Shown: positions 3,681 through 29,971 of the stretch, one piece after another
Layout: every line of letters begins with the position of its first letter
How positions within the stretch are numbered: the stretch's first letter is position 1
Assembly (NCBI GenBank): GCA_040221175.1
Contig: JAVJVK010000013.1
Location: 1 to 64,000 of the forward strand
Direction: 5' to 3'
Length of the DNA stretch: 64,000 bases
Source: Phycisphaerales bacterium
Lineage (GTDB): Bacteria > Planctomycetota > Phycisphaerae > Phycisphaerales > UBA1924
Made by a program: the position numbers and the translations under genes
The notes under the pieces: generated by a model
What the model was told of the DNA's origin: nothing
The model's input: only the letters and a program-made list of their open reading frames with translations
Databases searched by the model: none

Positions 3681-5375
3681 CTAGCCCTCGTTGAACTTCT
3701 CGCGGAAGGCCTCGTGGGCTTCGACGTCGCCGATCAGCACCAGCTCGTTGCCCGCCTGGAGCACGGTGGTGGCCGGGGGGTTGGCCGTCAGGCCGTTCTT
3801 GTCGCGGTAGCCCACGATGGTGCAGCCGGTCGCCTCGCGCAGGCCGCTGTCCATGATCTTCTTGCCCACGACCGACCTGGGCACCTTGGCGTCGAAGACC
3901 TCCAGCCCCTGGGCGACGGTGACCAGCCGCCCCTGGTGCAGCAGGTTGTAGAAGGCCGATGCGCCCGTGCTGGCGTAGCTCTGCACGAAGTCGGCCCCCG
4001 CGCGGTGCAGCGCCGCCACGTGCTTGTCCAGCGTGCATCGGGCGATGACCTCGATGTCCGGCCGCAGCTTGCGGCAGAGCAGCGTGAGGTAGAGGTTCAC
4101 GTCGTCGTTGTTGCTGGTGATGACCACGGTGGGGGCCTTGGCCAGGCCCGCCGCCTCGAGGATGCGCGGCTCGGCGGCGTCGCCCACGATGGTCTTGTCG
4201 GGATTGGTCACCCGCCGCTGGGCCCGCTCGATGACGCGGTAGTCGACCTCGCGCAGCTCGAGCGCCTCGGCCGTCGCCCGCCCGATGCGGCCGTTGCCGA
4301 TGACGATCACCGGGTCGGCGCTGACGTTGTAGATGGCAAAGTGCTCGTCGTAAGCCTCCAGCTGCTCGGCCGAGCCGGCCACCAGCAGCACGGTGCGCTC
4401 GTTGACCACGGTGTCGGGCCGGGCCGGGCGGAAGACGCCGCGGTCCCACAGGCCCACGACGTTCACGCCCAGGTCGGTCAGGCGGTTCTCGCGCAGGCTC
4501 TTGCCGATCAGGGGCGTGCGGGCCGCGCTGGCCTCGGCGATGATGAGGTTGTCGAAGCGGGCCACCTCGTGCGTCACGGCGTCGCCGCCCGAGATGCACC
4601 GCGCCAGGGCCTGGCCCATGACGCGATCCAGGCGGATCACGCCCGTGGCGCCGGCCATCTCCATGATGGGCACCGACGCGCCCAGGTCGGCCGTCGCGAA
4701 CACCGGCACCGTCTCGCTCACGGCGCGCACGGCGAAGGCCACGGCGGTGTCCTGCGCGTCGTTGCGCGTCGTGACCACCATGGCGGCGCTCGAGACCCGG
4801 GCCGCCCGGTACGTATCGGGGTCGTCCAGGTCGCCCACCATCACGCGGACGTCCTGGTCGTGCAGCTTGCGGGCGTGCTCCACGTCGGGCACCAGCACCA
4901 CGTACGACTGGCCGACCTGCTGGAGCTTGGCGATCAGCGACTCGGTCACCGCGTCCAGGTGGGTCAGCACGACGTGGTCGCGCGTGGTCGCGGGCAGCTC
5001 GCGCGGGGTCCTGGCGGCGGTCTGGGCCTCCATCCATGGCGCGTAGAAGAACTGGATGAACATGAACGGCAGCAGCGCGAGCAGGAAGATCGTGCCGCTG
5101 ATCACCACGAAGATGGAAAACAGACGCCCCAGGTCGCTCTCGAAGGTGATGTCGCCGAAGCCCAGCGTGCTCATCGTGACCAGCACCCAGTACAGGCCGC
5201 TGAGCCAGGAGTGCTCCTGCCCCTCGTACTCCATAATGACGTGAAAGAGCACCGTGTTGACCGCCATCAGGCCGACGAGCACCGCCATGAACCACCCCAG
5301 CACCTTCAGGTTGCGCTGGGTCCGGCGCTGGCGGGTCAGGATCATGATCTGCGCGGCGATCGACTTCATGGCCAA
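3681..5375 (-). CDS. potassium channel protein with two RCK (TrkA) modules
   Basis: 564 residues. A short 2-TM pore module carries the selectivity filter TLGFGD at residues 70-75, flanked by TM helices at about 25-45 and 85-110. Two cytoplasmic RCK units follow. The first Rossmann unit (from about residue 130) lacks the nucleotide-binding glycines; the second (VIVIGNGRIGRA, about residue 344) keeps GxGxxG. A TrkA-C domain ends the protein (about 480-562). This is the MthK-like ligand-gated K+ channel architecture with RCK domains sensing nucleotides or ions. A c-di-AMP cyclase gene (cdaA) lies elsewhere in the window; c-di-AMP is a known RCK_C ligand in other bacteria, so a link is possible but not shown. 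Confidence 0.93.
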   Translation of the reverse strand: MAMKSIAAQIMILTRQRRTQRNLKVLGWFMAVLVGLMAVNTVLFHVIMEYEGQEHSWLSGLYWVLVTMSTLGFGDITFESDLGRLFSIFVVISGTIFLLALLPFMFIQFFYAPWMEAQTAARTPRELPATTRDHVVLTHLDAVTESLIAKLQQVGQSYVVLVPDVEHARKLHDQDVRVMVGDLDDPDTYRAARVSSAAMVVTTRNDAQDTAVAFAVRAVSETVPVFATADLGASVPIMEMAGATGVIRLDRVMGQALARCISGGDAVTHEVARFDNLIIAEASAARTPLIGKSLRENRLTDLGVNVVGLWDRGVFRPARPDTVVNERTVLLVAGSAEQLEAYDEHFAIYNVSADPVIVIGNGRIGRATAEALELREVDYRVIERAQRRVTNPDKTIVGDAAEPRILEAAGLAKAPTVVITSNNDDVNLYLTLLCRKLRPDIEVIARCTLDKHVAALHRAGADFVQSYASTGASAFYNLLHQGRLVTVAQGLEVFDAKVPRSVVGKKIMDSGLREATGCTIVGYRDKNGLTANPPATTVLQAGNELVLIGDVEAHEAFREKFNEG

Positions 5376-18710: not shown

Positions 18711-20384
18711 TCAGACCGCCGCGGGTTCCACCGCCGGGGACTTCCGCGATGCCAGCACGAGCCCGCCCCACACGATCGCCGCGCTGGTCGTGGCCAGCAG
18801 CAGGGCCCCATTGGCCTGGTGGGCGAACGTGACCAATGCCGTGGCCGCCGGCACGCTCGCAGCGTCCGCTAACTGTTCGGCCGTGGGAACCACTCGCCGC
18901 TCGCCGCCGGTCACCAGGGCAAAAGCCGCCCAGCCCAGGATGAACTGGAGAATCACCGCGGCAAAGAGCAACTTGCCAAGCCGGCCGCACACCCGAGCGC
19001 CGCGGGCATCGCCAGGCTCGCCGCTCTCGCGCGACGGTCCGGAGCCCTGCCCCATCAGCGCAAAGCCCACGACGGCCGCCAGCACGACCACCACGATGGA
19101 GAATCCCATATGCCCGTGCAGCGCCGGGCCCGACCACGACGTGGGCTCGGCGGCCATGCTCCCGTGCCGGTACATCGCCCCCATGATCAACTGCAAGACC
19201 AGCGACACCAGCAGCGCCCACGCGCCCACGCGCACCCAGGCCCGCGGACGATCGATCGATCGCAACGCACGAGCCGCCGGCGAGAGCCAGGCCGCGAACA
19301 TCACCATGGAAGCGAAGTACGCCTGACCGAGCACGCCGTGGATGGTGCCCAGCAGTGGGTTCGCTTCGGTCACTCGGGTGCCGCCAAGCACGCCTTGAGC
19401 GCTCACCATCAGGATGAGCGCCGCGGCCGCCTGTGCAGGCCGATCGGCCCGCAGAGCCAGGAGGAACCACGCCACGCTGGCCACGGCCACCGCCACTGCG
19501 ATGCCTCCGAAGGCCATGCCGCCCAGGTCCTCGGCCATGTGCAGACGAAGCCCCACGACCAGCACCGCCCCCACGAGCACCACCACGGCCACGGACACAG
19601 GCACGTCGAACCGACGCCGGAGCGCCGCGGTCGACCACACAAACACCGCCAGTGCGATGGTGGTGATGCCCACCAGCGAACCAAACAGCCGGTGCGTGTG
19701 TTCGAGGAAGATGCGCGGATCGGCCATGAGCGCAATGGGATACAGGAACATGTTCGCGCCGTACGTGCCCGGCCAGTCCGGCACCGCAAGGCCCGACCCC
19801 GTGCTGGTCACCAGGCCGCCCAGCAGCAGCAGGGGCGCGACGGCCGCGAAGGCCACGATCGCGAATCGCGATGCCCAGTACGCCGCCGGCCGCGTCGGCA
19901 ACGGCCCCTTGATCAGGCTGCCGATGAGCCCGCACACCGCCCCGCCCACCGCGCTCGCCGCCAGGAAGCCCAGCATCGCCACGCCGGCCGAGGGCGTCAG
20001 CCCGGCTGATCCCTGAGCCGGCTCGGCGCCGTCGATGGTCTCGGAAACAAGCGAGCCCATGATCAACAGATTCAGGAGGGCAGCCAGCAAGGCAGTCGCT
20101 CCGCCGGAAGCCCAGCCCAGCCGTCGGCCGCCAAACGCCCCGGCAAGTGCGGACCCGGCCACGATGACCAGCCCCATGCCAGGGCCGGCGATGCTCGCGG
20201 GGAGATCGAGCCATGGCTGATGTCCTATAAGCCATACCAACCACATCGTGATCGCGGTCGCAAAGCCGAGCACGACCGTCGGCCCGACGATCGATCGCGT
20301 CGAAACGCCGGCCGTTTGGTTTTCGATAGCATCGACCGCGGCTGCGGCTGATCCAGTGGCGATGGCGGGCTGGTTGGCGGTCAT
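18711..20384 (-). CDS. ctaA: haem A synthase (COX15/CtaA) with N-terminal membrane extension
   Basis: 557 residues, longer than the usual 300-400. Start backed by GGAG 6 bases upstream. The first about 175 residues add some four TM helices and a loop with no motif I recognise. The CtaA core follows: GGLVTSTGSGLAVPDWP, then FLEHTHRLFGSLVG with the haem-ligating and catalytic EHTHR, and a second helical bundle with GTIHGVLGQAYFA, LHGHMGFSIVV and FAHQANGALLL supplying further His ligands. It oxidises haem O to haem A for the caa3 oxidase encoded 9 kb away. No haem O synthase (CtaB) lies in the window. It is divergent from the act operon and shares its regulatory region. Confidence 0.92.
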   Translation of the reverse strand: MTANQPAIATGSAAAAVDAIENQTAGVSTRSIVGPTVVLGFATAITMWLVWLIGHQPWLDLPASIAGPGMGLVIVAGSALAGAFGGRRLGWASGGATALLAALLNLLIMGSLVSETIDGAEPAQGSAGLTPSAGVAMLGFLAASAVGGAVCGLIGSLIKGPLPTRPAAYWASRFAIVAFAAVAPLLLLGGLVTSTGSGLAVPDWPGTYGANMFLYPIALMADPRIFLEHTHRLFGSLVGITTIALAVFVWSTAALRRRFDVPVSVAVVVLVGAVLVVGLRLHMAEDLGGMAFGGIAVAVAVASVAWFLLALRADRPAQAAAALILMVSAQGVLGGTRVTEANPLLGTIHGVLGQAYFASMVMFAAWLSPAARALRSIDRPRAWVRVGAWALLVSLVLQLIMGAMYRHGSMAAEPTSWSGPALHGHMGFSIVVVVLAAVVGFALMGQGSGPSRESGEPGDARGARVCGRLGKLLFAAVILQFILGWAAFALVTGGERRVVPTAEQLADAASVPAATALVTFAHQANGALLLATTSAAIVWGGLVLASRKSPAVEPAAV

Positions 20385-20399
20385 TGAGACTCCGTCTCA
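20385..20399 (-). promoter_or_regulatory. inverted repeat overlapping the haem A synthase ribosome binding site
   Basis: TGAGAC-TCC-GTCTCA is a perfect 6-bp dyad ending directly at the haem A synthase start codon. On the coding strand the loop and adjoining stem contain the GGAG Shine-Dalgarno. Folded in mRNA it would hide the site; as DNA it could be an operator. Direct from sequence; role inferred. Confidence 0.5.
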
Positions 20400-20410
20400 C
20401 TTTCCGTAAA

Positions 20411-20427
20411 ACAGTACTTTTTTCTGT
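20411..20427. promoter_or_regulatory. 17-bp dyad ACAG-N9-CTGT between haem A synthase and act operon
   Basis: ACAGTACTTTTTTCTGT lies 26 bp from the haem A synthase start and 149 bp before actA. It matches 14 of 17 positions of the dyad at 29577-29593 in front of the cox cluster. A shared operator for terminal-oxidase biogenesis and complex III is the suggested meaning (inference). Confidence 0.5.
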
Positions 20428-20576
20428 CTAAGTGTACGCCGCCGCTGCTTTTTGGGTCGTTCGGTGGGAATATTGGGGCAACGCTGGGCCGAGAGGCCCG
20501 GCGACGCTTGTTTAGGCCCGACGCGGCCGTCCATGGGTGGGCGGGAGCCGCGTGGGGATTGCACGGGAGGCGTCCG

Positions 20577-21302
20577 GTGTCCGTTCGATTCCCCGTCTGG
20601 ATGAACGTGCTGCCCACGGTGGGCGCGATCGGTGGGGCCCTGGGCCTGATCGCCGCCATTTCCATCGTGACGTACTACTTCACGCCCAAGTACTGGGAGG
20701 TGGGTTACATGCCCACCCAGCCAGGCTCGGGCTTCAGCCACCAGATCCACGCCGGCAAGCTCGGCATGGACTGCCGCTATTGCCACACGCACGTGGAGAA
20801 GTCGGCCGAGGCAAACGTGCCCCCCGTGTCGACGTGCATGGGCTGCCACACCGATGGCATGCTCGCGCCGGCGTACGACCCCAAGGAGAAGGTCGAGTTC
20901 GTTCGGACCGCATGGACCGAGGATGCGTCGATTCCCTGGGAGCGCATCCACAAGCTGCCCGACTACGTGCGCAACTTCCCGCACCACGTGCACGTCAACG
21001 CAGGCGTGAGCTGCTACTCGTGCCACGGCCAGATCGAAGCCATGCCCGTGGTCTATCAGGCCGAGGCATTGAGCATGAGCTGGTGCTTGGACTGCCACCG
21101 CGGCATCGGCGACGCCATGGATGGGCACGACGACCCCGCGATGTATCTCGTGCCCCACGACAAGGTCACCGACCTGGAGTGGGTCGAGACCACCTGGCTC
21201 GGTGACATGGCCGGGACTCAGGCCCAGACCGCCAGCGTCCAGGCCGTTCTCGAGGGCATCCGTCAGATGCCCCCGGAGAACTGCGGCGCCTGCCACTACT
21301 AG
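20577..21302 (+). CDS. actA: alternative complex III subunit ActA, pentahaem cytochrome c
   Basis: 241 residues from a GTG start, chosen because GGGAGG sits 6 bases upstream; the earlier in-frame ATG at 20508 has none. One N-terminal TM anchor (residues 11-35) is followed by a periplasmic domain with five CxxCH haem sites (CRYCH 66-70, CMGCH 87-91, CYSCH 146-150, CLDCH 170-174, CGACH 236-240), the number known for ActA of Rhodothermus and Flavobacterium complexes. It takes electrons from the ActB Fe-S chain and hands them to the monohaem subunit or oxidase. First gene of the act operon. Confidence 0.94.
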   Translation: MSVRFPVWMNVLPTVGAIGGALGLIAAISIVTYYFTPKYWEVGYMPTQPGSGFSHQIHAGKLGMDCRYCHTHVEKSAEANVPPVSTCMGCHTDGMLAPAYDPKEKVEFVRTAWTEDASIPWERIHKLPDYVRNFPHHVHVNAGVSCYSCHGQIEAMPVVYQAEALSMSWCLDCHRGIGDAMDGHDDPAMYLVPHDKVTDLEWVETTWLGDMAGTQAQTASVQAVLEGIRQMPPENCGACHY

Positions 21303-29540: not shown

Positions 29541-29576
29541 GGCCCGGAGATTCAAGCTCGGAACAAGATCAGCCGT

Positions 29577-29593
29577 ACAGTAATTTGTACTGT
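29577..29593. promoter_or_regulatory. 17-bp palindromic operator candidate before the cox cluster
   Basis: ACAGTA-ATTTG-TACTGT is a perfect 6-bp dyad with a 5-base spacer, 18 bp before the first gene of the cox cluster. A/T-rich in a GC-rich neighbourhood, and 14 of 17 positions match the site at 20411-20427. Likely binding site of a dimeric regulator (inference). Confidence 0.55.
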
Positions 29594-29611
29594 TCCACAG
29601 GAACCAAGAGC

Positions 29612-29971
29612 ATGAGCGCCAACCACAATCACGACGACTGGTTCGCACACACGCGCGAAGAGGGCCTGCCCCAGCAGGAGCATGCCGGGCACGTCGACAC
29701 CCGCGCTCTGCTCATCTTCTACATGGGCATGCTGGCCTTCGTGGTGATCTCGATCATCGGCGTGGCCCTCTTCTTCAAGAGCTACGTCCAGAACGCCCGC
29801 GTCAAGAACATCGAGACGCTCCAACTGGCCGTCGACGCCAACGCGTACAAGGCCGAGACGCTCGAAGAACTCACCCAGTACGGCTGGTCGGGCCAGATCG
29901 TCGAGGGTGCCGCACGCATCCCCATCGACGAAGCCCGGCAGAAGGTCCTCCAGGACTATCGGCAGCGATAA
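29612..29971 (+). CDS. small single-TM protein heading the cox cluster, unknown function
   Basis: 119 residues, start MSANHNHDDW. A His-containing N-terminus (residues 1-28), one TM helix (about 31-54, ALLIFYMGMLAFVVISIIGV) and a periplasmic helix-rich tail. No cofactor motif or known family is recognised. Its position, first in the cluster with SCO1 and oxidase subunits and directly behind the palindrome, suggests a role in oxidase assembly or as an accessory subunit (inference). The gap to the SCO gene is 16 bp. Confidence 0.75.
   Translation: MSANHNHDDWFAHTREEGLPQQEHAGHVDTRALLIFYMGMLAFVVISIIGVALFFKSYVQNARVKNIETLQLAVDANAYKAETLEELTQYGWSGQIVEGAARIPIDEARQKVLQDYRQR

Follow-up and report, generated by a model that had tools for sequence, protein, structure and literature searches.

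The window analysed here, a stretch of 64,000 nucleotides (64 kb) from a Phycisphaerales bacterium with a G+C content of 67%, carries the haem A synthase gene ctaA, the genes of alternative complex III (actA-F) and a cox cluster (Table 1). In those family loci that include this region, ctaA and actA are transcribed divergently, and the order ctaA (minus strand), actA-F, small gene, SCO, cox2 and cox1 is kept in related loci where covered. The start of actA was read as the GTG at 20577, which follows GGGAGG, and this start context is kept in most of the genus.

Table 1 Genes and sequence elements at the ctaA/actA and cox promoters of the window
Feature	Position	Strand	Remarks
ctaA, haem A synthase (COX15-CtaA)	18711..20384	-	Pfam E 6.5e-12
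TGAGACTCCGTCTCA, Fur-like 7-1-7 dyad, separate element	20385..20399		between ctaA start and act array
Copy 1, act/ctaA side (TTTCCGTAAAACAGTAC)	20401..20417	+	1 mismatch to TTnCnGT-N3-ACnGnAA, whole-genome scan
Dyad of the original prediction, act side	20411..20427		right half-site of copy 1 plus left half-site of copy 2
Copy 2, act/ctaA side (TTTCTGTCTAAGTGTAC)	20421..20437	+	offset from copy 1 by exactly 20 bp
actA, multihaem cytochrome subunit of alternative complex III	20577..21302	+	Pfam cytochrome C7/c3 matches
Copy 1, cox operon (GATCAGCCGTACAGTAA)	29567..29583	+	left half degenerate
Dyad of the original prediction, cox side	29577..29593		junction between the two cox copies
Copy 2, cox operon (GTACTGTTCCACAGGAA)	29587..29603	+	20 bp after copy 1; overlaps probable ribosome-binding site
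Small first cox-cluster gene (119 aa)	29612..29971	+	then SCO1, COX2, COX1, COX3

A pattern search of the window located the two 17-bp ACAG-N9-CTGT dyads of the original prediction, ACAGTACTTTTTTCTGT at 20411-20427 and ACAGTAATTTGTACTGT at 29577-29593, where they had been placed, and 14 of the 17 bases are identical when the two are compared by eye. Each had also been said to lie within 30 bp of a start codon, and the distances are indeed 26 bp to the ATG of ctaA (20384-20382, minus strand) and 18 bp to the ATG at 29612. The absence of further intergenic copies of ACAGTA or TACTGT agrees with a scan of the window, in which ACAGTA occurs in the two dyads only and TACTGT only in the dyad at 29577-29593. 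Whether the motif exceeds its background frequency depends on the stringency. With up to 3 mismatches, the 17-bp pattern was seen five times in the 64-kb window against 3.3 expected, no excess over chance, while ACAGTA-N5-TACTGT with at most 1 mismatch has just two sites in the 3.44-Mb genome, both in the act/cox cluster.

The six further genomes of the genus all keep both dyads at the same two loci, and the exact 17-mer is restricted to this genus; the best matches upstream of actA outside it mostly had 3-5 mismatches. Since the 17-mer is not conserved there, 80 loci around actC were examined, nearly all of them Phycisphaerales or other planctomycetes by title and one titled Cyanobacteria. 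Profiles anchored on the divergent promoter in these related loci revealed a repeated dyad, and conservation upstream of orthologous clusters, which fails for the exact 17-mer, is found for the unit thus redefined.

This unit (hereafter the array) is a 17-bp imperfect dyad, TTnCnGT-N3-ACnGnAA, present twice in direct orientation at a distance of exactly 20 bp, so that the conserved element spans 20401-20437 at act/ctaA and 29567-29603 at cox. The ACAG-N9-CTGT dyad, taken in the original prediction for the unit itself, is the centre of this element, that is, the junction of two such dyads. Identity within the genus alignment is 93% for the act array and 55% for the flanking intergenic DNA. Perfect TTnCnGT-N3-ACnGnAA occurs in 23 of 66 act regions compared with one for the junction form, so that the outer form is preferred as the unit. 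Single dyad copies are present family-wide in act promoters. A scan for the single dyad at 2 mismatches in the window's own genome was at background level (176 matches forward, 257 in the control), which leaves tandem pairs as the only informative form. Both arrays of the window are imperfect matches to the pattern, with 3 and 4 mismatches of 20. When up to 5 of 20 mismatches are allowed, the window has exactly two matches to the tandem pattern; with up to 4 of 20, the pattern was absent from 20 dinucleotide shuffles of the window.

Across the 80 orthologous loci (1.51 Mb), the tandem pattern at up to 4 of 20 mismatches fell into act promoters (15), cox intergenic regions (9) and elsewhere once, and at the cox loci the period of 20 alone was enriched, with 10 loci as opposed to none for a period of 19 or 21. 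This act and cox enrichment is partly circular, as the pattern was partly derived from act and cox loci, but the results for ctaB, ccoNO, resB and the genomes outside the family are free of that circularity. For the haem O synthase gene ctaB, the set of promoters was chosen by the NCBIfam model with the motif disregarded, as a held-out prediction: 18 of 50 carry an array at up to 6 of 20 mismatches (0.05 expected), again at period 20 only. The ctaB promoter of the window's genome is among the carriers, and about half of the ctaB promoters lack an array. A strict tandem scan found arrays in 35 of the 163 genomes of the window's GTDB family, leaving the majority without one at this threshold, compared with 0 of 237 genomes from other families of the order, and the reversed-pattern control gave 0 of 400 genomes of the order. 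These genomes are mostly metagenome assemblies.

Of the 43 sites from the strict family scan, at least 26 belong to act, cox, ctaB, resB or DoxX/mqnC loci: 6 at act/ctaA, 7 at cox, 4 at ctaB, 6 at ResB-like cytochrome c maturation genes and 3 at DoxX with or without mqnC (distance to actA is the basis for assigning genome G033 to cox, and genomes G110 and G126 to act). One further site is at a nuo gene. Genes in the related loci were called by a simple score of codon bias, and the starts given for ORFs are approximate. In the window's genome an array also lies in front of ccoNO, which an Rrf2 gene flanks in divergent orientation, and another is near a haem oxygenase gene. About ten arrays precede secreted dockerin or pseudopilin-like genes, a misfit to the respiratory theme.

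Two side observations concern these neighbours. In six loci (L176, L189, L202, L232, L234 and L235) the array stands between secreted dockerin/EF-hand-like and pseudopilin (N_methyl) genes; a TGAGAC-type box (see below) often accompanies such arrays, and in the window's own genome haem oxygenase is next. At two others (L320:3837-6359 and L321:231-2888), proteins of 840-885 aa starting with MSxKW match ResB weakly and are possibly divergent or fused cytochrome c maturation proteins; Pfam names the MSAKW proteins ResB on the full-length frame, and a structure search with their sequences returned no match.

Between the ctaA start and the act array lies a separate element, the TGAGAC dyad, which the original prediction missed despite its wider conservation: at up to 2 mismatches it was found in 55 of 66 ctaA/actA intergenic regions against 0.8 expected, and it is more widely kept at act loci than the array. 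It is absent at cox and ctaB, and neither set of loci shows enrichment for it. Elsewhere in the genome it is found in front of a siderophore-type ABC system (C7:114675, with a periplasmic binding protein and further ABC-type genes), iscSUA (C11:47999, in which we take two genes to be iscU and iscA) and nrfHA (C7:128831). Like a Fur-family 7-1-7 box, it is a 15-bp dyad (TGAGACTnnGTCTCA) with iron-related neighbours, in a genome that has three Fur-family genes (PF01475). The simplest reading of the TGAGAC dyad, given the 7-1-7 form and these three genes, would thus be a Fur-type box, but its core bases differ from those of the classical Fur box (TGATAATnATTATCA), and it is best called a putative site. 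With both elements present, the act/ctaA promoter would answer to iron control as well as to the regulator of the array.

A -10-like hexamer lies within -16 to +4 of the array in 16 of 35 cases against 3.5 expected, compared with 0-3 further upstream, and in act promoters one dyad copy begins about 28 bp after TTGACA, in the expected -10/start region. A pattern scan of the window found no sigma-70-like promoters beside its own arrays. We also noted a family-wide string, cTTGACAGsgTAGG, 25 bp after the TGAGAC dyad in ctaA/actA promoters (L098, L109, L130, L146 and others); the window's genus has lost this string or carries it in altered form (TGTCTAAGTGTACG).

Taken together, we consider it probable that the array is a tandem operator for two putative regulator dimers, which defines a family-specific regulon of the aerobic respiratory chain, with repression as the likeliest mode of action. 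With the exact 20-bp period, the four half-sites alternate in orientation, follow one another in steps of 10 bp and share one face of the helix, which suggests that two dimers of one regulator would bind side by side on the two dyads, probably cooperatively. Since many arrays start at a -10-like box or directly behind it, the regulator would most likely repress by covering the -10 and start region. The array marks alternative complex III together with haem A synthase, the aa3-type oxidase and haem O synthase, and likewise the cbb3 oxidase, cytochrome c maturation of the ResB type and the menaquinone (mqnC)/DoxX genes. As the element is common to these respiratory and haem genes, one regulator probably switches them together, and the signal may be haem, iron, oxygen or the quinone state. 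The original proposal of a single regulator for haem A synthesis, complex III and oxidase is therefore plausible through the common array, while the regulator types it named find no such support, as set out below.

Two known systems are informative for comparison. In Bacillus subtilis, ResD controls ctaA/ctaB and the cox genes, and the likeness lies in haem A/O synthesis and oxidase genes being placed under a common regulator and in ctaA being divergent from neighbouring respiratory genes. ResD differs in the sequence and geometry of its sites and belongs to another phylum, the array geometry here suggests repression, and the Phycisphaerales arrays also include alternative complex III and ResB. 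ArgR is a paired-operator repressor whose two 18-bp dyads lie 2-3 bp apart. The array resembles it in having, near the transcription start, two near-abutting imperfect dyads whose centres are about two helical turns apart, but the half-site and the target genes are others.

Among other readings of the arrays, the one that deserves most weight, though we regard it as unlikely, takes them for activator sites or core-promoter elements, where a regulator recruits or melts polymerase or the array is an unusual promoter part. Act promoters, with TTGACA followed by a dyad copy about 28 bp later and a poor sequence at the expected -10 position, could need an activator, and a further dyad copy often lies just upstream of TTGACA. 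However, many arrays follow a -10-like box and reach about 37 bp into the transcribed side, which is unusual for an activator, and palindromic half-sites paired at exactly 20 bp, carried by only some genes, are unlike a core promoter. The dyads could also act in RNA, folding in the 5' UTR into two tandem hairpins, each with a 7-bp stem and a 3-nt loop, that govern translation or termination; they are near start codons, often on the transcribed side, and the cox copy overlaps a probable ribosome-binding site. Compensatory stem changes, as expected of an RNA element, were absent from the variable pairs, with no covariation at dyad positions 3/15 and 5/13 (z -0.1 and -1.6), the cox array of genome G002 stands about 50 bp away from the start in place of the 18 bp seen in the window, and act copies stand both upstream and downstream of TTGACA, which together make an action in RNA very improbable. 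Similarity by chance or shared descent without function would agree with the lack of enrichment of the 17-mer at 3 mismatches in the window, but it is already contradicted by the restriction of arrays to the family with an empty reversed-pattern control, by conserved blocks within otherwise diverged intergenic DNA and by the held-out ctaB matches, and we give it next to no credence.

The tandem operator reading leads to the identity of its regulator, for which dimeric winged-helix proteins of the BlaI/CopY or Rrf2 type had been put forward. BlaI/CopY operators are of the TACA-N2-TGTA type, in contrast to the tandem TTnCnGT-N3-ACnGnAA observed here, and the window's genome has 0 matches to PF03965 (Penicillinase_R), for which control genomes were positive; a BlaI/CopY regulator is thus not supported and was rejected. 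In most of the genus an array lies between ccoNO and the divergent gene for an Rrf2-type protein (TIGR00738 above cut-off), the single homologue found, and Rrf2 proteins occur in 154 of the 163 family genomes. Arrays are nevertheless present in G002 (100% complete) and G088, in which a single-protein search at E 1e-3, able to miss a distant Rrf2, gave no Rrf2 match. Most other Rrf2 genes of the family have no array-like sequence upstream, and a separate conserved A/T-rich sequence in the ccoNO/Rrf2 promoter is the better candidate for the Rrf2 site, so that we consider Rrf2 a rather improbable regulator of the array. This divergent promoter, with its array and AAG-TATA-TCTATATTTTTAT, was observed at about 3690-3870 of locus L323 (G000:C19:209000-216500), and AAG-TATA-TCTATATTTTTAT is a candidate Rrf2 (NsrR-like) site. 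The scan of 38 neighbours of family arrays yielded no transcription factor gene, and the only regulator gene found beside arrays is this Rrf2, with its own site. Two GerE/LuxR-type response regulators in the genome showed no tie to the arrays.

A broader form of the tandem operator reading, which we put forward tentatively and hold to be possible rather than likely, is that a new type of family-specific global regulator, which would recognise the paired 17-bp dyads at their 20-bp period, represses the construction of the entire aerobic chain, with haem A/O synthesis, alternative complex III, both haem-copper oxidases, cytochrome c maturation and menaquinone, and may pair with the iron regulator at act/ctaA. 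A search of the open-access literature yielded neither an operator or regulon for alternative complex III nor a respiration regulon in Phycisphaerae. The array could serve as a concrete DNA bait in the search for its regulator. It also supplies a testable rule, a pair of dyads at a spacing of exactly 20 bp in the -10/start region, by which to predict the genes that respond to oxygen, haem or iron in this poorly culturable lineage.
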